Below, in pieces: positions 8,349-49,306 of a DNA stretch of 64,000 nucleotides (within the stretch, counting starts at the first letter, position 1; the number at the start of each line of letters is the position of its first letter). The notes under the pieces were generated by a model. That model searched no databases. It was given only the letters and a program-made list of their open reading frames with translations, and had not been told where the DNA came from. The stretch comes from a virus: IMG/VR virus record IMGVR_UViG_3300037088_000559, positions 1 to 64,000 of that record, one strand, 5' to 3'. Position numbers and translations under genes: made by a program.

Positions 8349-8495
8349 ATGGAAACGCGCTACGTTATCGTAAAGACGAAAGCGTGGTGCGTGGAGGAGC
8401 ACCGCGAGCGTAACGTGATTCTAACCTATGAAGTTACGTCGCTACGTGCGGGTTGGGAGAGGTGGTTTTTGGTGAGGCAGGATTGGGCAAATTAG
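8349..8495 (+). CDS. small hypothetical protein
   Basis: 48 residues from ATG 8349 just after GGAGA. The sequence METRYVIVKTKAWCVEEH then RNVILTYEVT reads like a small alternating beta protein. It ends at TAG 8493-8495, immediately before the convergent leftward cluster. Codon choice matches neighbours, but the length makes the call tentative. Confidence 0.45.
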   Translation: METRYVIVKTKAWCVEEHRERNVILTYEVTSLRAGWERWFLVRQDWAN

Positions 8496-8733
8496 GGGAC
8501 CTATATAGTTGACTTCCTCAACTTCAATTTACTGGCTATTCTTCCAAGCTGCGTATTCACCTGCGCGCTGTTGGGCGTCCGGTCCTGAGAAAATCACAAC
8601 AAAACAATCCCCAGATGAGAGGTCCATCGCTTCTGCCCGATAGTCTTCCCGGAAATTGCGGTCTTGAACTACTTCATATTTCGATTTCATGCTCTTTTCC
8701 TTCCGAGGAAGTCAACTATATAAATCCCCAAAT
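8491..8733. repeat. long inverted repeat flanking a 53-residue gene
   Basis: The 18-base core TATATAGTTGACTTCCTC at 8502-8519 occurs in exact inverted form at 8705-8722. Similarity extends outward to about 30 bases per arm with a few mismatches (AAATTAGGGGA against the complement of TCCCCAAATTA). Between the arms lies the 53-residue leftward gene. The right arm is inside the coding sequence of the upstream zinc-finger gene and the left arm lies between convergent transcription units. It may be a mobile mini-element, a recombination target, or a long-range mRNA pairing. Confidence 0.8.
8529..8690 (-). CDS. 53-residue hypothetical protein inside inverted repeats
   Basis: The reading frame runs from ATG 8688-8690 to TAA 8529-8531, with a GGAAGGAAAAGAG Shine-Dalgarno region. 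The protein begins MKSKYEVVQDRNFREDYRAE and ends AGEYAAWKNSQ; it is hydrophilic with no membrane segment. It overlaps the upstream gene by ATGA, so it is probably translated by coupling. No family recognised. Confidence 0.6.
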   Translation of the reverse strand: MKSKYEVVQDRNFREDYRAEAMDLSSGDCFVVIFSGPDAQQRAGEYAAWKNSQ

Positions 8734-8839
8734 TAGCAACTTGGCCCGTCCCCCGGCATTGGGGGCAGGGAATCGCCTGATATTTCCCCGCTGTCCACTT
8801 CGCCCACTTGCCTGTACCGTTACAGCCGGGGCAGGTCAT
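8687..8839 (-). CDS. 50-residue zinc-finger protein, DnaJ central-domain type
   Basis: ATG 8837-8839 with a GAGGG site upstream; stop TGA 8687-8689 overlaps the next ATG. The protein starts MTCPGCNGTGKW and has a second CPQCRGTGQ box, so two CxxCxGTG modules are present as in the DnaJ cysteine-rich zinc domain. Two modules would bind one zinc ion. Such mini-DnaJ zinc proteins are common in phages but their role is generally unknown. The last residues (IYIVDFLG) are encoded by the right arm of the inverted repeat. Confidence 0.75.
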   Translation of the reverse strand: MTCPGCNGTGKWAKWTAGKYQAIPCPQCRGTGQVANLGIYIVDFLGRKRA

Positions 8840-11755: not shown

Positions 11756-12238
11756 CTAACCGCGCATGTCCCATACAATCCCGTCGATACTGCTGGCAAT
11801 AAGGATATTCACGTTCGCGCCTCCAAAGGCCACAAGGATCGAATCCGCGACATTCCCTGCGACGGGTTTCCGGGTTTCGGGATGGATAAAAGCGATCCGG
11901 CCTTTCACAAATAGAATCCCCGCGCAATGGGCAAGAACAATCTCGTGAAACCATTTCGAGCCTAGACGCGGGATGATTAACGCGATGCCATTTCCGTGCT
12001 CAGCGAGGCGTTTTAGCCAGAGAAGCGCCTGCGTCCCGTAAGGCGGATTTAACCATACGCGCCCTCTCCATTCACGCGATAGACCGTTTTCGCAATAGCC
12101 AACTTTTGCGCAACGGGTCGGATACTTCCGGCTGGCGGCAGGATCGAGGTCAAATAGGCCAAGCGCGTCAAGAATTGACTTTGGTGTTTCCCAATCATCG
12201 CGGGTAATCGCACCACGAGAATTGAATTGTTGGCTCAT
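11756..12238 (-). CDS. phage N6-adenine DNA methyltransferase (Dam-like)
   Basis: 160 residues from ATG 12238, which overlaps the polymerase stop (ATGA). The motifs DDWETPKSILDAL, FDLDPAA and WLNPPYG (NPPY at about residues 64-67) are those of the phage DNA N-6-adenine-methyltransferase family (PF05869). The enzyme transfers methyl from S-adenosylmethionine to adenine in DNA. Placement directly after DNA polymerase suggests methylation soon after replication, to evade restriction. Length is normal for this compact family. Confidence 0.85.
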   Translation of the reverse strand: MSQQFNSRGAITRDDWETPKSILDALGLFDLDPAASRKYPTRCAKVGYCENGLSREWRGRVWLNPPYGTQALLWLKRLAEHGNGIALIIPRLGSKWFHEIVLAHCAGILFVKGRIAFIHPETRKPVAGNVADSILVAFGGANVNILIASSIDGIVWDMRG

Positions 12239-14211
12239 CGTAACCATTTACCTCCCTTATACACCGTCTCGATCTCCCCCAGGTTCTTCCCCGACCAGGC
12301 GATCTCCACCGGACAGTGGAAACCCGGCATCTCGGGCATGTCGATATCCTCCTGATATTCGCGGACCCACGCACAAGCGCGTTTCACCGGGATCGAACGC
12401 GGGACGTTATACAAGATCAGATCGTGAACCTGCAGCGTCACCAGTACCTTCGCGTGCTGGCGGGCGCGTAGCATCGCGAGCTTCGTAAGGTGGGCGACTG
12501 GCTGCTGGCCGTAGCACGCCGCGGCGATCTTCAGGCGATCCGTCGGCTCACCGAAGCTCAACCCATAGTAGCCGTTGGGTGGGCGGAAAGCCCCGTCGTT
12601 CTCGATCTGGCGCGTGATTCGCCGGTGGACCTTATGTACCCCCGGATAAGCGTCGAAGTAAGCCCGTTGCATCGCCAACACCGCCGCGCGATTCTCCAAC
12701 GTCGCTTTGCCGAACAGCCGCTGGGCCAAGTTAATCGCCGTAAACGTCACGATCTGACCCTCGAAGGTCCAATCACGGTAAACGATCCGCGCCCCCGCAT
12801 CGATCTCCTGGCGTATCTTCCAGCTTTGTAACTGGCTTGGGTCGATGAGCGACAGGCCTTCAAGATTGTTGGCCCCGTGAGTTACGCTCTTAGCCGCCTC
12901 GCGCGCGTTCCCCCTTTGGATCGCGAGCCTATCGGTATCTTTAATCCCCATGCGCTCGGCTGTAGCCTTGTGGAAATCACCGATAGGAAGCGGGTGGCCC
13001 CCCTGATAGAGGTAATTGTTCCCCTCGGCATTACTATAATCGGCCGCGACTAGGTAATGGCCGGGGTAGGGGACGATGCACTTGGGGACGTCCTTTGCCC
13101 CCCAGCCGCGCGTGGCCTTCGTCCCGGCGTCGTCCACGCGGCGCTTCATAAGATTCTGGAGGTTGGGAGACGTACATTGTAAGCGGGCGGTTGAGGTAAA
13201 CGGCCCGAGGCGCGGGTGTACGTAATCGCCGCCATCAACGTACCCGTCGTACTCACCCGTCTTGTCATTCCAAACACGATCCGCGAACCACGAGTCTATC
13301 CCCTTGCCAAGATCCTTGCATTCGAGGGCGCGGTGGAGATCGGGATCGTCGTATGTACCGCACGCCTCCCGTACGGTCTCCTCCTGCCAGTCGTCGAGGT
13401 GGATACCACGCGCATGAAAGTAAGCTAACGCCGCCTTGGGCGATCTGACGTTGAACGGCGACTTTTCCTCCAGCGCCGTTTTCTCCCGCGCGAAGGTTGT
13501 ACGCATTTCGCTGATACGTTTACGATCTACGTGTACCCCACGAGTCTGGATCTCGTATAAGAAGTCCATAAGCTCGACGTGCAGGGGGTACAAGTGAGAA
13601 ACGCGGCGCGTCTCCATATGGCGGTGCAGACCAGGCAAAGCGAACAAAGTCTCGAACGCGTCGAGGCCGTTGTACCAGTAAGGAGCGTGCTCGGGACAGG
13701 GGCGGTTTACACACCACGTTTTACCGGGGCAAACTTTGTGGTCGGGGAACGAGGTGTATAAGCTCAACATCGTCCACATATTCATAAACCCGCGGCCCTT
13801 GTAATCCGAATCGGAATCGGAGATCTTACCTTCACTCTTACAAGCCCACATATTCGTGAGCCAGTATAAAAGAATCGTATCGTCGATCTTCTCGTACGGT
13901 AATGCGATCCTTAACTTATCGAGGATAGGCTTCTCCGCCTGGGTGAGGTTATGCCCGCAGATACGCCCCGGTCGCTCAATAAACTCACGGAGATACGGGG
14001 CGCCTGCGTCGAACGGCGCGGATACGGCGATTTGGGGGGACGCGAATCCTATGATCGTGGGCTCGCCTGTCTTGACGTTCCACTCGAAGTCAAGTCCGCG
14101 TTGAGGCGAGGCGAACGTCTTGGGGATATCCGCGGGGTTCGTCGAGACAGGCGGGTAGGCGCGTAGGGGGCGGAACGTCGGGCGCGCGGCTTGGGCGAGG
14201 ACGTTAGCCAT
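12235..14211 (-). CDS. family A DNA polymerase
   Basis: 658 residues from ATG 14211 (GGAGTTGAAA site). Residues about 38-180 hold a 3'-5' exonuclease-like domain: LDFEW (exo I) and YNGLDAFETL (exo III) are clear, exo II (GHNLTQAEKP) is atypical. The polymerase domain has motif A ADYSNAEG (Asp about 391), motif B REAAKSVTHGANNLEG (His where Phe or Tyr is usual) and motif C QVHDLIL (Asp about 597), where the usual VHDE glutamate is Leu. Both metal-binding aspartates are present, so activity is expected. There is no 5'-nuclease domain, as in T7-type enzymes. It is surrounded by methyltransferase and helicase genes. Confidence 0.9.
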   Translation of the reverse strand: MANVLAQAARPTFRPLRAYPPVSTNPADIPKTFASPQRGLDFEWNVKTGEPTIIGFASPQIAVSAPFDAGAPYLREFIERPGRICGHNLTQAEKPILDKLRIALPYEKIDDTILLYWLTNMWACKSEGKISDSDSDYKGRGFMNMWTMLSLYTSFPDHKVCPGKTWCVNRPCPEHAPYWYNGLDAFETLFALPGLHRHMETRRVSHLYPLHVELMDFLYEIQTRGVHVDRKRISEMRTTFAREKTALEEKSPFNVRSPKAALAYFHARGIHLDDWQEETVREACGTYDDPDLHRALECKDLGKGIDSWFADRVWNDKTGEYDGYVDGGDYVHPRLGPFTSTARLQCTSPNLQNLMKRRVDDAGTKATRGWGAKDVPKCIVPYPGHYLVAADYSNAEGNNYLYQGGHPLPIGDFHKATAERMGIKDTDRLAIQRGNAREAAKSVTHGANNLEGLSLIDPSQLQSWKIRQEIDAGARIVYRDWTFEGQIVTFTAINLAQRLFGKATLENRAAVLAMQRAYFDAYPGVHKVHRRITRQIENDGAFRPPNGYYGLSFGEPTDRLKIAAACYGQQPVAHLTKLAMLRARQHAKVLVTLQVHDLILYNVPRSIPVKRACAWVREYQEDIDMPEMPGFHCPVEIAWSGKNLGEIETVYKGGKWLR

Positions 14212-14572
14212 TTTCAACTCCATCGTGCGCATCAAGGATAATCTGGCGGGCAGAGATCCAGGCGGCGATTCCGTAAGAGGGCTCCATAGAGGACACGCGA
14301 TTATAAACATTGAGCAGAAAAGAGCGGGCTACCTTTTTCTCTGCCCATTTCTGTAGAATCGTCCTCTCCTCGCACGGGCCTAGGTCACGGATCGCCTCGT
14401 GTAAGGTAAAGATCGCGTAGGGAGTCCGTATCGAAGTATCCGATGGATTCCCCCGGCAGGGGATAATCTGTCCGGGTTTGGACTTGGCGATAGCAAGGGG
14501 ATCAATCCGCGTCGCATCCACCAGGAGAAGGCGCCCCTGCCACTCGATTTGTACCCAATCGTCAGTTGCCAT
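14204..14572 (-). CDS. hypothetical protein upstream of DNA polymerase
   Basis: 122 residues from ATG 14572, set by an AAGGAGATT site; the frame is open further upstream but there overlaps the methyltransferase fusion. It begins MATDDWVQIEWQGRLLLVDA, looks mixed alpha/beta, and has no recognised motif. Its stop overlaps the polymerase start by 8 bases, so the pair is likely cotranslated; a polymerase accessory role is possible but unproven. Confidence 0.65.
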   Translation of the reverse strand: MATDDWVQIEWQGRLLLVDATRIDPLAIAKSKPGQIIPCRGNPSDTSIRTPYAIFTLHEAIRDLGPCEERTILQKWAEKKVARSFLLNVYNRVSSMEPSYGIAAWISARQIILDAHDGVENG

Positions 14573-15782
14573 TGGGGGGAATCTCCTTCTGCGTTGCCAC
14601 GCCGGGAACCTGCCCGCGCACGGACCTCTCGTATTCCTGCGCCAGCACCGTCGAGAGTAATGTTGTCCCTTTGCAGACCTGGCACGTCTCGCCCTCACGC
14701 ATCACTTTACCCGCGCACACCGGGCACACCGCTAACTCGCCGTTTTGCAGTTTCTCCATTACGAACGCCAGACGCGATAAGTAGTTGGCGAATGAAGCGA
14801 CGGTCATCGATAATGATAGACCTTCACCCTTGACGAATTCACCGAGCTTCTCCTGTACTCGGCGCGTCTCCTTATCGAATCCCTCGGGGGTACGGTGCTC
14901 GACTTCGTATAGGACGGCCCCCTCGACGTGCCGACGTAGGCGCGCCCAGGTACGGTCCTGCTCGGCGCGGGCTTTGGCGATACGCTTACGTTCGGCGGCT
15001 TTAAGGCGCCCCGCTTGCTGGCGCAGCTCCTTACGGGATAGCGGGCGCTTATTTACTTCTTCAAGATTGATCTTAGGTGCCTTTTCTGTGTTCATCGTGA
15101 ACCTCCTCAAACATAAACAGGCGTTCGATTCTCGGGTCCTTGTTTCCAGTGGCGTCCCCATATCCGTTCGTGTGGGGAACTCTGCGATTAAAACTGCATC
15201 AACCGGAGCCTTGTACTCGGAGACGACTACGGTATTCATCCGCGACCATTGCCGAACGATACTCCAGAATGTCTCGTTATCGAATTGGTGTGTATATCCC
15301 GTGGCTCCGGCATACGGCGGATCACAGTAGACAAAGCACCCGCGTAGTTTGATCGTTCGATAATCAGCGCAGCGAAAGTGAACATTCCGCAGATAGCGGA
15401 TTTTCTTTAGCAGCGAGTTTCGGGCATTGCTCGTGTAGTTTCTATCACTCTTTGGGTCTCGCGCATATCCTCCAAAGAACTTCCCACTGAATGAACACCC
15501 AAAACCAATGAAACCACGCAGCGCAGAGGGAGGCTCCGTCCGTATCCGTGCGTATTCTTCCTCGGAAACAACTTCTGGAGGAACCCACCCGCGCTGCAAC
15601 GCCTGCCACAGCATAATTAAATCGGGGTGAACATCAGAAGCGTAACGTGGGTCGTCCATACGCTGGGTAATCCAGCACGCCCCGCAGAAAGGCTCGACGA
15701 AGATCTGCCCGGGCTTACGGAGGCGCGAGAGAACCTCGCTGATTCGCGCCGCCGTTCTAGCTTTTCCTCCGAGATAGTGCAT
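14562..15782 (-). CDS. D12-class adenine methyltransferase fused in frame to a zinc-finger protein
   Basis: 406 residues from ATG 15782 (AAGGAG site; a TTG 15 bases upstream is possible). Residues 1-230 are a D12 (Dam-like) N6-adenine methyltransferase: YLGGK at 3-7, VEPFCGA at 29-35 and catalytic DPPY at 154-157. Residues 230-406 are helical and charged with a CPVCAGKV...CQVCKG four-cysteine zinc site near the end. The junction contains GAGGAGG eight bases before an in-frame ATG at 15095, so the C-terminal 177 residues may also be made alone. Either a true fusion or two genes that lost the stop between them. Confidence 0.8.
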   Translation of the reverse strand: MHYLGGKARTAARISEVLSRLRKPGQIFVEPFCGACWITQRMDDPRYASDVHPDLIMLWQALQRGWVPPEVVSEEEYARIRTEPPSALRGFIGFGCSFSGKFFGGYARDPKSDRNYTSNARNSLLKKIRYLRNVHFRCADYRTIKLRGCFVYCDPPYAGATGYTHQFDNETFWSIVRQWSRMNTVVVSEYKAPVDAVLIAEFPTRTDMGTPLETRTRESNACLCLRRFTMNTEKAPKINLEEVNKRPLSRKELRQQAGRLKAAERKRIAKARAEQDRTWARLRRHVEGAVLYEVEHRTPEGFDKETRRVQEKLGEFVKGEGLSLSMTVASFANYLSRLAFVMEKLQNGELAVCPVCAGKVMREGETCQVCKGTTLLSTVLAQEYERSVRGQVPGVATQKEIPPNGN

Positions 15783-15993
15783 CCCGCTCCTTATCAATCA
15801 CCGCACACAGCCTCTCGAATCGTCCGATATGTAGATCGCGTAACCGTGTCAACATCTCCACCGTCACCCGCCGAACACTCTCCGAGCAGGGTGGCGATAC
15901 CCCCGGCCGCTGCCACTCGGCGTCCAGAAGAAGATCGTCGAGCCAGTGGGCCAGCCGCCGACGAAGATCGTTTCGATTTAGCCATCGTAGCAT
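15757..15993 (-). CDS. small basic helical protein overlapping the UDG-like gene
   Basis: 78 residues: MLRWLNRNDLRRRLAHWLDD onward, helical and charged with a normal composition. GAGG lies 8 bases before the ATG. It overlaps the C-terminal 200 bases of the UDG-like gene in another frame and runs past the start of the methyltransferase gene. Because the other frame here is low-complexity Ser/Ala/Arg/Gly, I think this frame is the one under protein selection. Confidence 0.55.
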   Translation of the reverse strand: MLRWLNRNDLRRRLAHWLDDLLLDAEWQRPGVSPPCSESVRRVTVEMLTRLRDLHIGRFERLCAVIDKERDALSRRKS

Positions 15994-16991: not shown

Positions 16992-17861
16992 TCACCTCCC
17001 AAGGATAGAATCTAGGACTCGACGACCCTCTTGATACGGGAGCTGGAACCCGGCAGCGTTCTTATGCCCACCTCCGCCGTACGTTTTGGCGATGGCGCTG
17101 ACATCGATCTCGCCGATGGAACGCAGCGAGAATTGGATTTGTGAATCGCCGCGCTCGAACCACCCCACGCCAACGCCGCCCCAAGTCTCGCATAACTTGT
17201 TACAGACGTCGGAGATATTCGGGTACGCCGCGCACACCACTCGCACCGAATATCCCCCAATCTCACCGCGTTGGACTTGGGCCGTGACCTTCTCGATATA
17301 GTGATCGATGTGAAGGCGAATCGCTTTCCCCAACTCGCGGGCGTCGGCGGACATCATATCCCGTAGCCGATCCCACGCTTCGATCGTGTGGGGTAGGGCC
17401 ATCAGATACGCGTTGATCTCGCGGGAATCGGGTAGCGCGAAACACCAAAGATCGCGATCTTGGACATAATCGACGTACCAGGGACGACTCGTCACAGGCC
17501 AATCGGGATCCTCCTGTGGGTGTAACTCATCCCACGTAATCGCCGCGCCCGACCTCTCCATATCGAAGACGATCCGCGTCCCGAGCGCCGGATGCTCCAC
17601 GAAGTTCTTAAGTTCTTCCTGGGCGGTTTTGTGATGGTCAAATACCGTAAGGGAACGCGTAACTTGGCAAAGTGCGAAAGTCGTGGCGCGGGGGTAGGAG
17701 AAGTCAACCATCAGCACGTCTTTGCCCGTAACCCCGCTCACGTTAATCGGGGGCCCGCCGTAAGTCGCGCCGATGAGCCGGGCCTCGGGGTAGCGTTTGG
17801 AAGCGATGTACGCCGAACACCAGCCGTCGGGACAATCTCTATGGTAGATAACTATATCCAT
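16992..17861 (-). CDS. DHH-family phosphoesterase (DHH-DHHA1)
   Basis: 289 residues. Motif I is YHRDCPDG (residues 6-13), motif II DFSYP, motif III FDHHKTA, and the C-terminal DHHA1 domain ends with YGGGGHKNAAGF, so all hallmarks of NrnA/RecJ-like phosphoesterases are present. Such enzymes use manganese to cleave nanoRNA, cyclic dinucleotides or single-stranded DNA ends. Next to helicase and polymerase genes, a role in DNA or nanoRNA turnover is plausible; cleavage of cyclic-dinucleotide defence signals is another possibility. A 42-base stretch of this gene recurs inverted at 23980-24021. Confidence 0.85.
   Translation of the reverse strand: MDIVIYHRDCPDGWCSAYIASKRYPEARLIGATYGGPPINVSGVTGKDVLMVDFSYPRATTFALCQVTRSLTVFDHHKTAQEELKNFVEHPALGTRIVFDMERSGAAITWDELHPQEDPDWPVTSRPWYVDYVQDRDLWCFALPDSREINAYLMALPHTIEAWDRLRDMMSADARELGKAIRLHIDHYIEKVTAQVQRGEIGGYSVRVVCAAYPNISDVCNKLCETWGGVGVGWFERGDSQIQFSLRSIGEIDVSAIAKTYGGGGHKNAAGFQLPYQEGRRVLDSILGR
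17473..17514. repeat. 42-bp exact repeat, copy 1 (within DHH gene)
   Basis: This stretch encodes part of the DHH protein (the EDPDWPVTSRPWYV region). Its exact reverse complement is found at 23980-24021 in the disordered linker of another leftward gene. In the DHH gene the sequence looks native, since the reading frame is ordinary globular protein here, so this is probably the source copy. Confidence 0.9.
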
Positions 17862-20863: not shown

Positions 20864-20898
20864 GTCCTCCCTGAATCAACCTGGCCGCGGTGGCCGGA
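20864..20898. repeat. repeat A, copy 1 (35 bp)
   Basis: This 35-base sequence is identical to 21705-21739. In leftward reading it contains a GC-rich part with GGCC...GGCC symmetry, then TTGATTCAGGGAGGAC, which supplies the ribosome binding site of the following gene. It includes the last codons of the 65-residue gene upstream. Confidence 0.9.
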
Positions 20899-21083: not shown

Positions 21084-21125
21084 CACGCCGCACCGCAGCC
21101 AGCCTGGCTCAAGCTCCTTCCGCGT
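21084..21125. repeat. repeat B, copy 1
   Basis: CACGCCGCACCGCAGCCAG is shared exactly with 21794-21812, and the following 22 bases are clearly related in both copies (ctcaag, tcctt and cgcg conserved). In leftward reading it ends shortly before the Shine-Dalgarno of the 65-residue gene. Confidence 0.85.
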
Positions 21126-21701: not shown

Positions 21702-21769
21702 GCCGTCCTCCCTGAATCAACCTGGCCGCGGTGGCCGGATTCCCCACTCGGCTTCCCCCTAATGGACAT
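21698..21769 (-). CDS. 23-residue leader peptide (possible)
   Basis: ATG 21767-21769 has GGAGGTGGGAG immediately upstream; the stop TGA 21698-21700 overlaps the ATG of the 97-residue gene. The peptide (MSIRGKPSGESGHRGQ...) is hydrophilic and is largely encoded by repeat A copy 2. Probably serves translational coupling, or is the remnant of a deleted gene between repeats B and A. Confidence 0.35.
   Translation of the reverse strand: MSIRGKPSGESGHRGQVDSGRTA
21705..21739. repeat. repeat A, copy 2 (35 bp)
   Basis: Identical over 35 bases to 20864-20898. It again lies directly upstream of a leftward gene and includes its Shine-Dalgarno sequence. The distance to repeat B is only about 55 bases here, against about 185 in copy 1. 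Confidence 0.9.
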
Positions 21770-21793: not shown

Positions 21794-21834
21794 CACGCCG
21801 CACCGCAGCCAGATTGACTCAAGATCCTTTCGCG
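21794..21834. repeat. repeat B, copy 2
   Basis: Shares CACGCCGCACCGCAGCCAG with 21084-21102 and a diverged 22-base extension. It lies just after the end of the 89-residue gene, so B marks the junction between genes in both places. Confidence 0.85.
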
Positions 21835-22468: not shown

Positions 22469-23167
22469 TCAGGTATAAATCGCCGCCTCGGGCTCCTCCC
22501 AGATCGTTAAGCCTTTAATCTGGCGTATCCCCGCTTTCACCACGCGTCGTATCTTGGCTTCGTCGAGCATCAGGTACTCGGGATCAACATCGTCGATTTT
22601 GGCGGCAAGCTTGAACTTCGGGACCATACGGGTAGCAGCGGCGGCCGATTCGGTTTGTACGCCCGCTTGGTAGGAAACGGCCCCGGGTTCGGGCGGGGGG
22701 ACGAAGGCGTTTCCGGTTTTGGCCGCTTTCTGCTCAGCCTTGGCGAATTGGTGTTCGTACGCTTCCGCATCGATACGGACCCTCTCGTCGGCTCGGCGCT
22801 TCTCTTCCCGCAGGTACGTGTTGAGTTTGGTACGGCCTGCGTCCTCCGCTTCTTGCGCTGGCCCGGTGATCTTCTTGAAGAACGAGTTGATGAATTTAAC
22901 GTGTTCGTTGAGCGGATCAACGAAGCGTTTACGGATCGCTTCGGTCGTTTTGAAGACCCGTATACACTGGGCGATCAAATCGGTCATCGCCTCGGACGAC
23001 TTCTGATCGGTGACCGCAAGCGAATCGATCTTGCGGCGAATCGGCGGGGTCCCGGACGACGCGGCTAAAACTGCGGGATCGCGTTTGATAATCGCCAGAT
23101 CCGAGGTCAAGGCGGGAACTTCAACCGCGGCTTTGGCGCCAGACGGCTTGGTTGCGACGGTTTTCAT
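22469..23167 (-). CDS. coiled-coil phage protein, recombination-module type
   Basis: 232 residues; AAAAGGAGGCTCAT precedes the ATG. Residues 45-150 form a long charged helical region (FVDPLNEHVKFINSFFKKIT..., EEKRRADERVRIDAEAYEHQ), then a Pro-rich hinge and a short C-terminal domain (KAGIRQIKGLTIWEEPEAAI). Proteins of this shape commonly sit beside single-strand annealing, SSB and Cas4-like genes in phages; their activity is not established. A hairpin lies in its leader and a 23-base repeat shared with the capsid gene leader lies further upstream. Confidence 0.65.
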   Translation of the reverse strand: MKTVATKPSGAKAAVEVPALTSDLAIIKRDPAVLAASSGTPPIRRKIDSLAVTDQKSSEAMTDLIAQCIRVFKTTEAIRKRFVDPLNEHVKFINSFFKKITGPAQEAEDAGRTKLNTYLREEKRRADERVRIDAEAYEHQFAKAEQKAAKTGNAFVPPPEPGAVSYQAGVQTESAAAATRMVPKFKLAAKIDDVDPEYLMLDEAKIRRVVKAGIRQIKGLTIWEEPEAAIYT

Positions 23168-23278: not shown

Positions 23279-23301
23279 AAATTGCGGTTAACCTCCACAA
23301 C
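23279..23301 (-). repeat. 23-bp repeat shared with the capsid gene leader, copy 1
   Basis: Read leftward, 23 bases containing TTGTGGAGGTTAACCGC are identical to 47995-48017, which is in the leader of the major capsid gene. Both copies lie in 5' untranslated positions on the coding strand, suggesting a shared regulatory or processing site. Confidence 0.85.
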
Positions 23302-23319: not shown

Positions 23320-24237
23320 TTACGCCTCCCACGCGAACACGTATCCCGACTTCCCGTTGAACGGCTTCAACATCTTCTGCCTGGGGTCGTCGAGGACCGA
23401 CGGAGCGAGTACCCCCTGGACGCGCAAGTTATTCGCGAACGCCGGGTCTTGCGGGTTGCGGTCTTTCCGGCATAAAGCGATCACCCGCACACCGACGAGA
23501 ATCGCGTTGGTGATCTCGAACCACGAGTCAACGCTATCCGGGGCCGCGTCGATACCGAGTTGTTTACGCGTGTGACCCTGCTCCGTACCGATCGCCATCA
23601 ACTTCTGCATCACCGCCGTCTTGTCCCCCGAGGCGACATTGCGGAGGTATTGGTTGAGCTGCATATTCCCCTTGACCGGGGGCGTCGCGTCCCGATCACC
23701 CTCCTCGTTGGGCAGCGTACCCTCGGGGCCCGCCACGACCTCCATGAAGTTGGTCACGAACAGCGGAGGGAGCCAAATCGTGAAGTTGTCCTCGCGGTCG
23801 TTATCCTCGAATCGAAGCTTGAGGATCGCGGCGACGGCGCCGGAATCGAAATCCCTGCGCTCGAAGCCCTCGACTTGGGCGAGGTGGGCGGTGGGGTTGG
23901 GCGGGGGGAGCTTGACGGCGGGGGTGGGGATAAGATCGTCCGATTCGTCAACGGGCACATTCCCGGTGGAATCGGGCTCGGAGGATCCCGATTGGCCTGT
24001 GACGAGTCGTCCCTGGTACGTGGAATCGGGCTGGTCCTGCGGCGTCTCCTCATATACGATCTCGCCCTCGACAGGCTCGGGATCGGGGAGAGGCGGGGCG
24101 GGGGTGGGGGCGACGGGCTTGCGGAATACGGCGGGCGCCAGCGCGGGTTTGACGGGTTTGGTTACGGCGGGCCTGGCAGGGGGCGCAGGGGCCGGTTTGG
24201 TTACGATAGGTGATGCTTTCTTGACCAGCTTGGGCAT
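23320..24237 (-). CDS. conserved-type phage protein with Pro-rich disordered N-terminus
   Basis: 305 residues from ATG 24237 (AAAGGAG site). Residues 1-110 are a Pro/Ala/Lys then acidic disordered tail (PAPAPPARPAVTKPVKPA); residues 120-305 are globular with FTIWLPPLFVTNFMEVVAG and a C-terminal LKPFNGKSGYVFAWEA. Position between a coiled-coil protein and a Sak4-like ATPase suggests the recombination or replication module, and a role in binding single-stranded DNA is conceivable. I do not recognise an OB-fold signature. It contains the in-frame inverted 42-base copy from the DHH gene. Confidence 0.65.
   Translation of the reverse strand: MPKLVKKASPIVTKPAPAPPARPAVTKPVKPALAPAVFRKPVAPTPAPPLPDPEPVEGEIVYEETPQDQPDSTYQGRLVTGQSGSSEPDSTGNVPVDESDDLIPTPAVKLPPPNPTAHLAQVEGFERRDFDSGAVAAILKLRFEDNDREDNFTIWLPPLFVTNFMEVVAGPEGTLPNEEGDRDATPPVKGNMQLNQYLRNVASGDKTAVMQKLMAIGTEQGHTRKQLGIDAAPDSVDSWFEITNAILVGVRVIALCRKDRNPQDPAFANNLRVQGVLAPSVLDDPRQKMLKPFNGKSGYVFAWEA
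23966..24032. repeat. 42-bp inverted copy flanked by 13-bp direct repeats
   Basis: Positions 23980-24021 are the exact reverse complement of 17473-17514. The copy is bracketed by GTGGAATCGGGCT at 23966-23978 and again at 24020-24032, a 13-base direct repeat that resembles a target duplication. The period from one direct repeat to the next is 54 bases (18 codons), so the reading frame is kept; the protein shows PDST on both sides of the inserted TYQGRLVTGQSGSSE. Confidence 0.9.
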
Positions 24238-24500: not shown

Positions 24501-25487
24501 CTATTCCTCCGTTGTGCGAACCTTCTCCCAGAACGCGCGTAGATCCAAAGGCTCGCGTAACGCCAGCAAAGGTTGCTTCCCCTTCTCCACCTTACAGTAT
24601 TGCAGGGGGAGTTTATGCTTGGCGAATATACGGCGCATTTTCGTCGCCTCTTTGCCGGTTTTGGGGTCTTGGTATCGGAAGGGTATCTCGATCTCCGTGG
24701 TCACGAGCTTGTAATGATCGTCGATGTAAAGCACAAACTCAAAGTCTGTATCGACCATATTGCCCATCTTGGGGGGCAAATCCGGCCAGATTCGCTCGTT
24801 ACCGTCGATCTGCGAGGGGAAGCTAACCGCCATCGCCACGCACCCGAAGTGCATGGGCTTATCGAGGACGCCACGTATGATATCCTTCATCGCGTCTTTG
24901 GCGGCTCGATGTATCTGCCGGAGATCCTTAACCTCGCGCTCGTTCCCCGCCGCGTCCACGGTCGTCTCGCTATCCTCCAGGATCATATCCTTAAGCTGGG
25001 TGAGATCATCGAGCATCAGGTAACGGTCGGTCAACTTCGCCCACTCGGGCCACAGAGCCTCGGGATGCAGTAACGCCTCCTGGGCCTTATCGAGTGTCGG
25101 ACAGTGAGCGATCTCCTTATATCCCAAATCGCGTAGGGGCAGCATCTGCTCTTTACGGCGCAGGAGGACTATACGCGTGTGATCAGGATCGGAGAATAAC
25201 GCCGCCGTCGTCGTCTTGTAGCGCGACGTCTCGGCGTACAAGACGAAGCGGAAGTAACTCTGGGTTAGAGACGAAGCATCGAATAACTCGATCTTGGAGC
25301 GTAGGGACGTGGCGACGGGGCGTACGGCGGTTGCGGCGTTGACTTGCCGGCGGAGCAACGTTCCCGTTGATATCAGGGGCTTGGCCGTACCCAACTTGGG
25401 AACGTTCGTACCCGGAGCGGGGACAGCGCGACCGACGATTAACGGCTGGGGCGCGATCTTACGCAAGGGTAGGGGAATGGTAGACAT
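24501..25487 (-). CDS. Sak4-like RecA-fold ATPase with degenerate P-loop
   Basis: 328 residues. After a Pro-rich 60-residue tail, residues 80-260 look like the phage nucleotide-binding AAA/RecA-fold (Sak4-type) recombination ATPase: FRFVLYAETSRYKTTT takes the Walker A position (Lys91-Thr92) and RYLMLDDL is the Walker B strand near residue 153. The usual glycines of GxxGxGKT are missing (AETSRYKT), so nucleotide binding may be altered. Sak4 proteins work with SSB in single-strand annealing. Neighbours (zinc finger, PD-(D/E)XK nuclease) fit a recombination module. Confidence 0.65.
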   Translation of the reverse strand: MSTIPLPLRKIAPQPLIVGRAVPAPGTNVPKLGTAKPLISTGTLLRRQVNAATAVRPVATSLRSKIELFDASSLTQSYFRFVLYAETSRYKTTTAALFSDPDHTRIVLLRRKEQMLPLRDLGYKEIAHCPTLDKAQEALLHPEALWPEWAKLTDRYLMLDDLTQLKDMILEDSETTVDAAGNEREVKDLRQIHRAAKDAMKDIIRGVLDKPMHFGCVAMAVSFPSQIDGNERIWPDLPPKMGNMVDTDFEFVLYIDDHYKLVTTEIEIPFRYQDPKTGKEATKMRRIFAKHKLPLQYCKVEKGKQPLLALREPLDLRAFWEKVRTTEE

Positions 25488-30370: not shown

Positions 30371-30381
30371 AATTCGGCTCC

Positions 30382-30990
30382 TTAGCTCGGGATCGTAAGC
30401 ATCCGGCGAATAATCGCCGCCATTTCGAGATGGGCTTTAGTATAGGCGGCGTCAGCGTCGGGGGTGGCGTCGGGGGCACGGGCGGCGTAGGCGGCGGCGG
30501 CGGCGGCGCGGGTGAAGGCATAGACGGCGTTGGCGGCGGCGTTGGCGGCGGCGTAGGCGTCGTCGGTGGCGGCGTAGGCGGCGGCGTAGATGGCGGCGTA
30601 AGCGGCGTAGGCGGCGGCGTAGATGGCGGCGTCGATATCGTAGGCGGCGTAGGCGTAGGCGTAGGCGGCGCGGGCGGCGCCTCGAACCTCTTGTAACGTT
30701 GCTTCCCCCCGTGCCCACTTCCGTGCCATTTCCAACGCTTTTGCCGGACGCTTTTCTTCCGGGGGTACATATTGCAACGCGGTTTCGGCGCACGCGCACG
30801 CCGCAAGCACCAGTTGTCGGCGAGTCGGCCACCCCTTTACACCGATCTGTCTCGCGCACAGCCAAAGCAGCCCGTCGGCGCGGGGACACGTCTCCCAGGC
30901 TTCGGTTAGGGTCTGGCTCGCGACAAAGCCCCGCGCTTCTGAACAAGCGCTGAATTCGCGGAGTAATCGTACTAATGCTCGATTCGTCAT
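30382..30990 (-). CDS. Ala/Tyr-repeat protein, copy B of duplicated unit
   Basis: 202 residues, AGGAGG before ATG 30990. Residues 1-105 are a globular domain with many Cys and Trp (LVLAACACAETALQYVPPEE, then ALEMARKWARGEATLQEVRG). Residues 106-185 are a repeat of AAYAA-type pentads (AYAAYAAIYAAAYAA), and a cap HLEMAAIIRRMLTIPS closes the protein. The globular part and cap are nearly the same as in the gene at 31093-31740, while repeat number and content differ. Function unknown; a long Ala-rich helix is expected. Confidence 0.75.
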   Translation of the reverse strand: MTNRALVRLLREFSACSEARGFVASQTLTEAWETCPRADGLLWLCARQIGVKGWPTRRQLVLAACACAETALQYVPPEEKRPAKALEMARKWARGEATLQEVRGAARAAYAYAYAAYDIDAAIYAAAYAAYAAIYAAAYAATDDAYAAANAAANAVYAFTRAAAAAAYAARAPDATPDADAAYTKAHLEMAAIIRRMLTIPS

Positions 30991-31002
30991 GGTGAAATCC
31001 TC

Positions 31003-31080
31003 CTAATGGCGCGCCTCGGTGTAGGCGAGGTTTAGTACTGTGGCGAGGGTAAGGGTAACATAGGTGTAGCGAGCGGACAT
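31003..31080 (-). CDS. 25-residue hydrophobic peptide, truncated paralogue of MTTRYT protein
   Basis: ATG 31078-31080 with AAGGAGCTTCACGT, TAG 31003-31005. Sequence MSARYTYVTLTLATVLNLAY then TEARH; compare MTTRYTCAVLIFTACVNLAY then TETRY in the gene at 30370. The shared frame, start and ribosome site show duplication of the two-gene unit. It stops right after the hydrophobic segment. Confidence 0.6.
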   Translation of the reverse strand: MSARYTYVTLTLATVLNLAYTEARH

Positions 31081-31092
31081 ACGTGAAGCTCC

Positions 31093-31740
31093 TTAGCTCG
31101 GGATCGTAAGCATCCGGCGAATAATCGCCGCCATTTCGAGATGGGCGGCGGCGGCGGCGTAGGCGGTGTGGGCGGCGGCGGCGGCGTAGGCGGTGTGGGC
31201 GGCGGCGTCGGCGATGGCGTCGGTGTAGGCGACGGCGGTGTGGGCGGCGTCGGTGTGGGCGGCGGCGGCGTAGGCGGCGGCGTCGGCGATGGCGTCGGTG
31301 TAGGCGACGGCGTAGGCGGCGGCGGTGGTGCAGGCGGCGGCGGCGGCGGCGTAGGCGGCGTTGGCGGCGTTGGTGGCGTTGGTGGCGGTGTGGGCGGCGT
31401 AGGCGTAGGCGTAGGCGGCGCGGGCGGCGCCTCGAACCTCTTGTAACGTTGCTTCCCCCCGTGCCCACTTCCGTGCCATTTCCAACGCTTTTGCCGGACG
31501 CTTTTCTTCCGGGGGAATGTACTGCAACGTGGTTTCGGCGCACGCGCACGCCGCAAGCACCACCTGCTGATGCGTCGGCCACCCTTTTACGCCCAGCTGT
31601 TTCGTGCATAGCCATAACATCCAGTCGGCGCGGGGACACGTCTCCCAGGCTTCGGTTAGGGTCTGGCTCGCGACAAAGGCGCACGCTTCTGAGCAGGCGC
31701 CGAGTTTACGGAGCAATCGTAACAATGTTGGATTCGTCAT
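31093..31740 (-). CDS. Ala/Tyr-repeat protein, copy A of duplicated unit
   Basis: 215 residues from ATG 31740 (AGGAGGATTTCACC; the open frame runs further upstream but without a site). The first 105 residues closely match the paralogue at 30382-30990, then a longer repeat region with AAYAAAAAHTA, AYTDAIADAAA units and the same HLEMAAIIRRMLTIPS cap. The DNA of the repeat is a GGCGGCGTAGGCGGC-type satellite, prone to slippage, so copy number probably varies between relatives. Confidence 0.75.
   Translation of the reverse strand: MTNPTLLRLLRKLGACSEACAFVASQTLTEAWETCPRADWMLWLCTKQLGVKGWPTHQQVVLAACACAETTLQYIPPEEKRPAKALEMARKWARGEATLQEVRGAARAAYAYAYAAHTATNATNAANAAYAAAAAACTTAAAYAVAYTDAIADAAAYAAAAHTDAAHTAVAYTDAIADAAAHTAYAAAAAHTAYAAAAAHLEMAAIIRRMLTIPS
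31141..31415. repeat. GGCGGCGTAGGC-type coding satellite (also 30449-30680 and 32214-32492)
   Basis: Three arrays of short imperfect repeats built from GGCGGCGTAGGCGGC-like units, in three different leftward genes. They encode Ala runs broken by Tyr, Thr, Asn, His or Asp. Array lengths are all multiples of three with no stop, showing selection for the frame. The opposite strand is therefore also open and gives long false Gly-rich or Arg-rich frames. Confidence 0.9.
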
Positions 31741-31774
31741 GGTGAAATCCTCCTGTTTGATGTGTCGTACTGGG

Positions 31775-32143
31775 TTATAAATCCCGCACTGTCCAGCGCT
31801 TGGTGCGGGATTTGGCGGTGTGGTCAACACATTTAATCACCTGTCCCACGTTGCCGACCGCCGCCAGAGTCACGGGTTCGTAGCGGTTATACGCCGGGGT
31901 GAGATCGCGAATGGCGTGATCGGTTTGGTAAATCATCCACTTGCGGTCGCGGGTGGCAATATAGTGCTGCGTATCGCTCACCAGATGCCCATCACGCACC
32001 ATGGGTATCTTGATCCAATCGAGCCCGCTAACCGTGCGGAGTTTGCATTTAAGCCTATAGAGAAGCTGGGAATCGCGTGAGACACGCGGCTCGCCTTTGT
32101 CGCGCTGGATCGTGAGGGTACTGGCGTCGGTGGTGATCGTCAT
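31775..32143 (-). CDS. hypothetical beta-rich protein
   Basis: 122 residues, GGAGGTCTAACCC before ATG. Alternating pattern (MTITTDASTLTIQRDKGEPR, KCKLRTVSGLDWIKIPMVRD, RKWMIYQTDHAIRDL) suggests a beta-sandwich-like small protein. It lies between two Ala/Tyr-repeat genes. No family recognised. Confidence 0.65.
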   Translation of the reverse strand: MTITTDASTLTIQRDKGEPRVSRDSQLLYRLKCKLRTVSGLDWIKIPMVRDGHLVSDTQHYIATRDRKWMIYQTDHAIRDLTPAYNRYEPVTLAAVGNVGQVIKCVDHTAKSRTKRWTVRDL

Positions 32144-32146
32144 GGG

Positions 32147-32920
32147 TTAGACCTCCGTAGCTAAGACCTCTTGTAAAAGGTGAGTTAAATCGTAAGAAAA
32201 TTTCTCAAGGACGTTGGCGGCGGCGGCGGCGGCGTAGGCGGCGGTGTAGGCGGCGTCGGCTTTGGCGGCGGCGGCGGCGTAGGCGGCGGTGTAGGCGGCG
32301 TCGGCTTTGGCGGCGGCGGCGGCGGCGGCGTAGGCGGCGGCGTAGGCGGCGTCGGCTTTGGCGGCGGCGGCGGCGTAGGCGGCGTTGGCGGCGTTGGCGT
32401 TGGCGGCGTTGGCGGCGGCGGTGTAGGCGGCGGTGTAGGCGGCGGCGTTGGCGTTGGCGGCGTTGGCGTTGGCGGCGTAGGCGGCGTCGTAAGTTCGATC
32501 TTTCCCGCTTTTCCAATCTTCGGCCCATTTCGTAAACACCTCTTTTCCTGGCCAGTCTCCGGTTAGTTCTAAAGCGATCCGCAAAGCAGCGAGGATTCGT
32601 TGATGTTTAGTGAATTGCGGGAGCGCGAACCGTTCGCGCAAGGTAAGGGTCTTAACACCAATTTTAGTGCCGCTGTTGGCCACGACTTCCGGGGTTTCGG
32701 CGGCGTAGAGGTGTGGGTGATCGAATGCGGCGTGTATAGGATTCATAAACGCCGTAATTTCGGGCGAGAGATAGGCGTGGATAATTTCGGAGGTGCATAG
32801 CGCCGTCCCGTCACCCGCAACGGTTACGGTTTCGCCAATACGCCAGTGCGTCTCGCCATCTTGACCTCGGCGGGTGTAGCCGTCGGAATCGGTGAGTTTA
32901 TACACGGTGATCATCGTCAT
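32147..32920 (-). CDS. DUF7666-like domain protein with Ala/Tyr repeats
   Basis: 257 residues, GGAG before ATG. Residues 1-95 match the phage DUF7666 type (MITVYKLTDSDGYTRRGQDG, WRIGETVTVAGDG, LCTSEIIHAYLSPEITAFMN): a short domain of unknown function, usually at protein N-termini. Residues 105-140 are helical with ALELTGDWPGKEVFTKWAED, then about 95 residues of AAYAANANAANA- and AAKADAAYTAAY-type repeats, then the cap VLEKFSYDLTHLLQEVLATE. A third, unrelated N-domain on the same repeat type. Confidence 0.75.
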   Translation of the reverse strand: MTMITVYKLTDSDGYTRRGQDGETHWRIGETVTVAGDGTALCTSEIIHAYLSPEITAFMNPIHAAFDHPHLYAAETPEVVANSGTKIGVKTLTLRERFALPQFTKHQRILAALRIALELTGDWPGKEVFTKWAEDWKSGKDRTYDAAYAANANAANANAAAYTAAYTAAANAANANAANAAYAAAAAKADAAYAAAYAAAAAAAKADAAYTAAYAAAAAKADAAYTAAYAAAAAANVLEKFSYDLTHLLQEVLATEV

Positions 32921-36571: not shown

Positions 36572-37159
36572 ATGGAACCGGCGTTTTCCTGTTGGCGTGT
36601 TCAACTCGCGAGCCGTTCCGCTATTGATCCATTCATTAAGAAGCACTATCTGCGCCGCTGGCCCGGAGTTGTAACACTGAACCTCGGTTTATTCGACGGG
36701 CAGAGGAATATCGGTTGTGCCGTGTTCGCTTTGCCTCCACGCGAGACGATGAAGCGTTACGGTGTCCCGCTCGTTTGGGAACTCGCGCGGTTGTACATCG
36801 AAGACACGACACCGGCCAATGCTGAGACTTGGTTCGTGGCGCGGGCGATTCGCTGGATTCAACGGGACTATCCAGACGTTACATGTCTGGTCTCATACGC
36901 CGATCCTTCGGCCGGGCATCGCGGGACGATCTATCAAGCCGGAAGTTGGATTGCCGACGGGCGTACTGACCAGGAACGGAAGACCCCGCGCTTCGATTAT
37001 CGTAACCCCATAACCAAGAAGATGTACTCCCGGCGTTCGCACGTTCCTGATGATGTCGTTCCCGAGCGCGTCCCGCGTATCTCAAAACTCCGGTATGTTT
37101 ATTGGTTGGATGGCTCGCACGAGAAACGTAGACAAGTCCAACGATTAAGTTTACGTTGA
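36572..37159 (+). CDS. Mom-like adenine-modification protein
   Basis: 195 residues, AAAAGGAGCCGTAC before ATG. The motifs KKHYLRRWPG, VWELARLYIEDTTPANAETW, and VSYADPSAGHRGTIYQAGSW (Tyr109 region) match the Mom family of phage Mu-type proteins, GNAT-related enzymes that convert adenine in DNA to a methylcarbamoyl-type modified base and so block restriction. Length is close to the family norm. It is placed between the late promoter and the terminase genes, so modification would occur just before packaging. Confidence 0.78.
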   Translation: MEPAFSCWRVQLASRSAIDPFIKKHYLRRWPGVVTLNLGLFDGQRNIGCAVFALPPRETMKRYGVPLVWELARLYIEDTTPANAETWFVARAIRWIQRDYPDVTCLVSYADPSAGHRGTIYQAGSWIADGRTDQERKTPRFDYRNPITKKMYSRRSHVPDDVVPERVPRISKLRYVYWLDGSHEKRRQVQRLSLR

Positions 37160-47954: not shown

Positions 47955-48034
47955 CAGGTACAAGGTAAAAGAGGAGTCAAAACTTACCACACGTGTTGTG
48001 GAGGTTAACCGCAATTTCGTACGAGGTTCTATCA
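47955..48034 (+). promoter_or_regulatory. major capsid gene leader with dyad and 23-bp repeat
   Basis: CCACA-CGTGT-TGTGG (47986-48000) can form a hairpin, and 47995-48017 is a 23-base sequence identical to the complement of 23279-23301. GAGG 8 bases before ATG 48035 is the ribosome site. A structure in the leader of the most expressed gene suggests control of mRNA stability or translation. Confidence 0.6.
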
Positions 48035-49306
48035 ATGGCCCAAGCAACAGCGGATGTCGTCGGCCTGCAACTCGAAAAGGTGCGCCGCAAGCTCCCCGAG
48101 TTGTTTGAATACGAAGACACCCTTTTCAGTACTATCCAGAACCGCCAGGACGTGGAGAAGGTCTCCAGCCGCGTGACCCGCGTCCCGCTGCAAGTACGTC
48201 CCGGTTCGCGTTTTGGTATCGTTAATCTTGCGGGTGGACCGCTCGGACGCGGCACCGGCACCCACTATGACTTCGCGTCTCTCGCACCTATTGCTTCCCG
48301 CATCGCGATCGAGATCAACGACGATGCTCTGGCGCAAACCGACGGTGAACCCAAAGCGATCCGTAAGCTTCTGGCACAGGAAATCAAGAACGGTATGCGC
48401 GAGTTTCGGCGCCAACTCAACGCCCAGCTTCAAACCGCGGGCGATTGCGTTCAGGCGACCGTCTCCGCCGCGACCGCTACCACCATCACCGTCAACAACG
48501 CGCCGTTCTACGCTCAGCTTCTCCGCGCGCAGCAGATCATCCAAGTGTATGATTCCACCATCACCACCAACAAGGGATCATGCACGATCCAGTACATCGA
48601 CTACCCCAACAACGTCCTCACTGTTGATGCCACGCCCACGGGCGGGGGTGGGGTGATCTCAACCGACGTGATCCTGCTTGAAGGTGTTTCCGGTGCCAAC
48701 CCCGTCGGGTACTTTGGCATTCCCTATCACATCTCACCCTCGGCGATCGGCACGTGGCTGAATATGAGCCGCGTAACGACTCCCGAGATCCGCGCCAGTA
48801 ACTTCGATGTCGGTGGAAACGCCCTCACTACGTTCCCGATACGCCTCTTGCTCACCAAGATCAGGCAGCGTATTGCGGGATCGGCGTCAGCGGGCGCGCT
48901 TAAGTCACTCCGCGCCCACCTCCACGATACCCAGGCGGCCGCGTACGAGGAGCTGGCCGTACTCGTCACCAAGATCGAGAAGGGCTCGGGGAACGAGTCG
49001 ATCGATATGCTGTTTGGCGATCAGCGTATGGCTGGAGTACCCCAGATGCGCGATATCCATGCGGCTCGCAATCGAATCGATTTCCTCCACCTCGATTCGT
49101 GGGGACGCGTTGAGTCTTTACCCGTGGACTTCATCAAGAAGCCCGACGGGACGTATATCGAGCGCCCGATTGATTCGGCCACGGGATCGCCGATTGCGGC
49201 GATTCTGTTCTGGATCGTGTGGTTCGGCCAGTTTTTCGTCGAGAACCCCGCAACGCAAGGAGATATCACAACCTTGGCAATCGCTGCCGGTTACGACGCG
49301 TTATAA
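48035..49306 (+). CDS. major capsid protein (HK97-type fold likely)
   Basis: 423 residues from ATG 48035. Position after scaffold, size, and pattern fit an HK97-fold capsid protein: an N-arm helix (LQLEKVRRKLPELFEYEDTL), E-loop-like FGIVNLAGGPLGRGTGTHYD, a long spine-like helix (EPKAIRKLLAQEIKNGMREF), and P-domain and A-domain strands to the end (AAILFWIVWFGQFFVENPAT). No insertion resembles P22's I-domain clearly, although residues 140-230 could be one. Most abundant virion protein by inference. Confidence 0.75.
   Translation: MAQATADVVGLQLEKVRRKLPELFEYEDTLFSTIQNRQDVEKVSSRVTRVPLQVRPGSRFGIVNLAGGPLGRGTGTHYDFASLAPIASRIAIEINDDALAQTDGEPKAIRKLLAQEIKNGMREFRRQLNAQLQTAGDCVQATVSAATATTITVNNAPFYAQLLRAQQIIQVYDSTITTNKGSCTIQYIDYPNNVLTVDATPTGGGGVISTDVILLEGVSGANPVGYFGIPYHISPSAIGTWLNMSRVTTPEIRASNFDVGGNALTTFPIRLLLTKIRQRIAGSASAGALKSLRAHLHDTQAAAYEELAVLVTKIEKGSGNESIDMLFGDQRMAGVPQMRDIHAARNRIDFLHLDSWGRVESLPVDFIKKPDGTYIERPIDSATGSPIAAILFWIVWFGQFFVENPATQGDITTLAIAAGYDAL

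Follow-up and report, generated by a model that had tools for sequence, protein, structure and literature searches.

We describe a 54-nt block within a phage gene of otherwise unrecognised family that is probably the scar of a single templated insertion in which, as phage DNA was being replicated or repaired, a short tract of a DHH phosphoesterase gene was copied in inverted orientation into the disordered linker of another protein. The analysed stretch, referred to as the window, covers 64 kb of a virus record totalling 65,369 bases (IMGVR_UViG_3300037088_000559), and all positions are given in its coordinates. Both copies, the flanking repeat and the reading frame are seen directly, as is the recipient structure, which is present in two assemblies.

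An inverted 42-nt copy bracketed by direct repeats

The features that make up the donor and recipient sites are as follows.

16992–17861, minus strand: DHH phosphoesterase, the donor gene (phrog_4771, DHHA1; PHROGs E 6e-78, Pfam DHHA1 2.3e-9)
17473–17514, plus strand: donor copy of the 42-mer, an exact match within the DHH gene, with the minus-strand reading (E)DPDWPVTSRPWYV
23320–24237, minus strand: recipient gene, encoding a 305-aa orphan protein with no PHROGs, Pfam or phage match
23966–23978, plus strand: first copy of the 13-nt direct repeat GTGGAATCGGGCT, read from the sequence
23979, no strand: junction base, either untemplated or a later substitution, read from the sequence
23980–24021, minus strand: inverted 42-nt insert with the in-frame reading TYQGRLVTGQSGSS, also present in an independent contig
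24020–24032, plus strand: second copy of GTGGAATCGGGCT, overlapping the 42-mer by GT, read from the sequence

Direct comparison across the 64-kb window gave 42 of 42 matching positions between 17473–17514 and the reverse complement of 23980–24021, and thus bore out, with exact coordinates, the perfect reverse complements reported in the first-pass annotation of this DNA. A repeat search extended the inverted pair to 45 nt at 98% identity and ranked it as the longest of its kind in the window. Chance is excluded as the explanation for a 42-nt inverted pair, given that the longest exact inverted repeat reached just 15–18 nt in ten composition-matched windows simulated with a first-order Markov model.

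The flanking 13-mer occurs twice in the window, at the two positions listed and nowhere else; Ala-rich repeats aside, the only other 13-mer recurrence at a spacing of 20–300 nt is one ordinary tandem pair at 42.5 kb. On the plus strand, the order of elements is the left 13-mer, a C at 23979 that is accounted for by neither this 13-mer nor the donor, the 42-mer, and the right 13-mer, which overlaps the 42-mer by 2 nt (GT, 24020–24021). The length added to the recipient is 54 nt, or 18 codons in frame, and the 42-mer starts, also in frame, at codon 73 of the recipient gene. The earlier description of a 13-bp bracket with a 54-base period, 18 codons and a preserved frame therefore holds, with GTGGAATCGGGCT starting at 23966 and 24020, and so does the view that this arrangement is unlike slippage. 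When 30 pieces of phage DNA of 7–64 kb were surveyed (626 kb including the window; a small sample that serves as a rough guide), this was the only dispersed exact repeat of at least 20 nt with a flanking direct repeat of at least 8 nt after exclusion of low-complexity sequence.

Repeats of other kinds are also present in the window. A gene-poor stretch contains two repeat pairs in the same order but with different spacing, namely 20864–20898 with 21705–21739 (35 nt, exact) and 21084–21124 with 21794–21834 (41 nt, 88%). Positions 8487–8519 and 8705–8737 form a 33-nt inverted repeat (88%) with an TATATAGTTGACTTCCTC core and about 185 nt between its arms, within which there is a possible small gene.

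The DHH gene as the probable donor

The 42-mer corresponds to residues 117–130 of the DHH protein. In an alignment with 15 relatives at 30–50% identity, this fragment takes in a loop whose length varies and then RPWYV, which leads into the conserved motif YV(E/Q)DRDLW. The RPWYV half of the donor is kept in distant DHH homologues, for example as RPWYVDYVEDRDLW in 2 relatives. Because RPWYV is conserved among the DHH relatives, the conserved half was in the DHH gene before it was in the linker, and this conservation points to the DHH gene as the source and the linker as the recipient, the direction that had previously been proposed as likely. The fragment comes from the middle of the gene, without element-like boundaries, and the DHH gene is intact; the copy elsewhere matches it at 42/42 positions.

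The window also encodes a protein matching the Mom family (36572–37159, plus strand; Pfam PF25680, 9.6e-31) and two methyltransferases, one Dam-like (11756–12247) and one of the D12 class (14562–15797), and from these matches the phage probably modifies its own DNA.

The recipient gene and its linker

A single-sequence AlphaFold2 model of the recipient protein predicts residues 1–120 to be unstructured and to be followed by a mixed alpha/beta domain; the model is of low confidence (mean pLDDT 44), and secondary structure is absent before residue 121. The disordered linker assigned to the insertion site in the first-pass annotation fits this low-confidence model. The insert appears to have been tolerated because it keeps the frame, introduces no stop codon and lies in the disordered linker.

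No Pfam or PHROGs family was found for the recipient protein, and searches for relatives in IMG/VR, GTDB genomes and GenBank phages yielded only a near-identical contig. No credible relative was obtained by tblastn of the protein against the records of the 15 DHH relatives (a 44-residue match in G006, E 0.005, was judged spurious), and the neighbouring genes, used as bait, recovered the same near-identical contig only. The recipient gene is flanked by an ORF without a family match (24501–25487) and, on the other side, by a weakly exonuclease-like gene; from this neighbourhood the protein may have a role in DNA metabolism, which is only a guess.

Exact 23-nt copies of GTTGTGGAGGTTAACCGCAATTT, containing the palindrome GGTTAACC, lie at 23279–23301 (minus strand) and 47995–48017 (plus strand), the 2 copies in the window. 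Both are upstream of genes, the exonuclease-like gene at 22469–23167 and a head-protein-like gene whose likely ATG lies near 48035, and may represent a shared regulatory or untranslated element.

A second assembly with the same recipient structure

A search of IMG/VR with the 42-mer matched a sole contig, IMGVR_UViG_3300037225_000247, from which the same recipient structure was recovered. Aligned to the window over about 11.8 kb, this contig shows 2 substitutions and an Ala-rich repeat whose length differs by 45 nt, and it ends at window position 23672, short of the DHH donor; it is almost the same phage, assembled a second time, and no outgroup. An artefact of one assembly is unlikely, given that the near-identical contig has the same recipient structure. 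An assembly or amplification chimera would fit the origin of the record in a metagenomic virus collection, and multiple-displacement chimeras typically have inverted junctions in which the microhomology is short; however, the junctions are identical in a contig that has differences of its own, both of them are present and in frame, and chimeras rarely rejoin the original template 13 nt back, making such an origin highly improbable.

The 45-nt difference maps to 32219–32263, indicating that close strains vary in repeat length. In the surrounding region (30377–32550), three adjacent genes, all leftward, contain long Ala-rich repeats with a 9-nt unit, and two of these genes share 300 nt at 91%.

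Proposed origin of the 54-nt block

In the templated insertion that we consider probable, the growing strand of the recipient gene, probably ending in ...AGCCCGATTCCAC, would leave its template and move 6.5 kb to the opposite strand of the DHH gene, where microhomology of about 2 nt would serve for priming. After copying about 40 nt of that gene, it would rejoin its first template at a point that precedes the departure by 13 nt. With the return placed there, those 13 nt would be copied twice. Break repair by templated copying leads to the same end product and is counted within this class. Removal of one 13-mer and the insert leaves the recipient frame uninterrupted, and the linker would then read ...DQPDSTGNVP.... 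This single-copy ancestral site is our reconstruction, as is the enzymatic path outlined above. No empty-site relative with a single 13-mer was found among IMG/VR, GTDB, GenBank phages and the 15 DHH-relative records, and a degenerate empty-site pattern (one that matches the right flank of the filled site as well) retrieved only the filled site when scanned through IMG/VR; with no empty-site relative found, we infer the insertion rather than observe it. It is probably recent.

Microhomology amounts to about 2 nt at each junction, with the GT overlap at one end and GG near the other, next to the odd base, and is thus near the level expected by chance. A 7-nt inverted match between CCCGATT in the 13-mer and AATCGGG in the insert was rejected as a primer, since its orientation is wrong for the observed copy; matches to the donor of this extent occur for 2.8% of the 13-mers in the window.

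The layout can be compared with that of known template switches. In the four-point model, the stretch from point 2 to point 3 is emitted in reverse-complemented form, and in many events point 4 precedes point 1 (PMC7954356). In such events the intervening sequence is duplicated, so that a target-like duplication of 13 bp needs no transposase. As in the model of Loytynoja and Goldman (PMC7954356), the tract found here is short and inverted at its new site and would be bounded by two switch points, and a return before departure would yield the flanking duplication; the model, however, deals with local events at one fork, whereas the donor here is distant by 6.5 kb and the setting is a phage. The perfect donor copy, together with a layout explained by the early return point, favours the template switching or repair scar suggested in the first-pass annotation.

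The same annotation had also raised a tiny mobile unit, with the 13-bp repeat as its sign. A 42-nt mobile element transposing with a 13-bp target-site duplication would leave an exact copy and a flanking direct repeat, both of which are present. However, the donor copy has no flanking repeats and contains conserved coding sequence, a third copy is absent from the record, IMG/VR gives the same recipient site only, and, by reading, neither end of the 42-mer is an inverted repeat of the other. No match to a reverse transcriptase (PF00078) was found in the record, and retrohoming was rejected; no transposase or integrase was found among the ORFs scanned with Pfam, which are a subset of all ORFs. 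With neither a further copy, terminal inverted repeats nor a reverse transcriptase found, and no transposase among the ORFs scanned, the mobile unit is not sustained and is extremely improbable; a switch that returns 13 nt early would be expected to leave the 13-bp repeat behind.

A closer competitor is end joining at a staggered break, in which fill-in of both 13-nt overhangs in the linker would accompany the capture of a free 42-nt fragment of phage DNA between them. Filled-in overhangs would leave a 13-nt duplication on either side of an insert, one junction base is unexplained, and exonuclease-like genes lie nearby. Nevertheless, 13 nt is a long stagger, the ORFs scanned (a subset of all ORFs) included no recognisable end-joining protein, and a template switch gives the same layout without a special nuclease; we therefore regard capture at a staggered break as possible but rather unlikely. 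Its product, too, is a repair scar, identical by sequence and differing in route alone.

A potential antisense site

The DHH and linker genes are both transcribed leftward, which makes 42 nt of their mRNAs complementary, with no mismatch; the computed duplex energy across all 42 nt is -93.9 kcal/mol. RNase III could act on an RNA duplex of this kind. The two mRNAs might thus pair and be cut or blocked, an antisense coupling maintained by selection that would be compatible with an origin by templated insertion and would draw on the shared orientation, the duplex energy and the absence of mismatches between the copies. A recent event, however, predicts zero mismatches equally, and the sole other contig is near-identical throughout; the flanking 13-mers mark a plain insertion, and a hairpin beyond the linker gene (about 23.20–23.24 kb) may end the transcript and separate the two genes. 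Selected coupling is accordingly judged very unlikely, and it is equally improbable that an error of copying supplied a 42-nt antisense site, ready for use, through which the expression or decay of the DHH and linker-gene mRNAs would now be coupled.

Discussion

The templated mutagenesis of phage T4 investigated by Ripley and by Schultz and Drake is said mostly to convert pre-existing imperfect repeats, with few bases changed. A later account credits Ripley (1982) with the first proposal of template switching for bacteriophages (PMC8604942). The T4 system resembles the origin proposed here in that an ectopic phage copy serves as the template for the polymerase (Ripley 1982; Schultz and Drake 2008; via PMC8604942). 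Distant templated insertions, mostly below 100 bp, arise at breaks in yeast flap-processing mutants (PMC11724301). As in distant templated insertions at double-strand breaks and MMBIR-type events of yeast and tumours, the copy described here is a short copy-paste fragment whose donor lies elsewhere in the genome and is intact; those events involve eukaryotic enzymes, whereas the phage case has a 13-nt flanking duplication (PMC11724301, PMC8421209). The class of mutation is already known; the unusual features are how far apart donor and recipient lie and the fixation in frame in a phage gene, rather than the mechanism.

A flanking direct repeat is by itself no proof of transposition. The locus is probably a clean case of templated insertion over a long range that has become fixed, in frame, in a phage protein gene; its donor, its recipient and the two junctions can all be read. 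Scars of this type show that disordered linkers can acquire new residues in one step.
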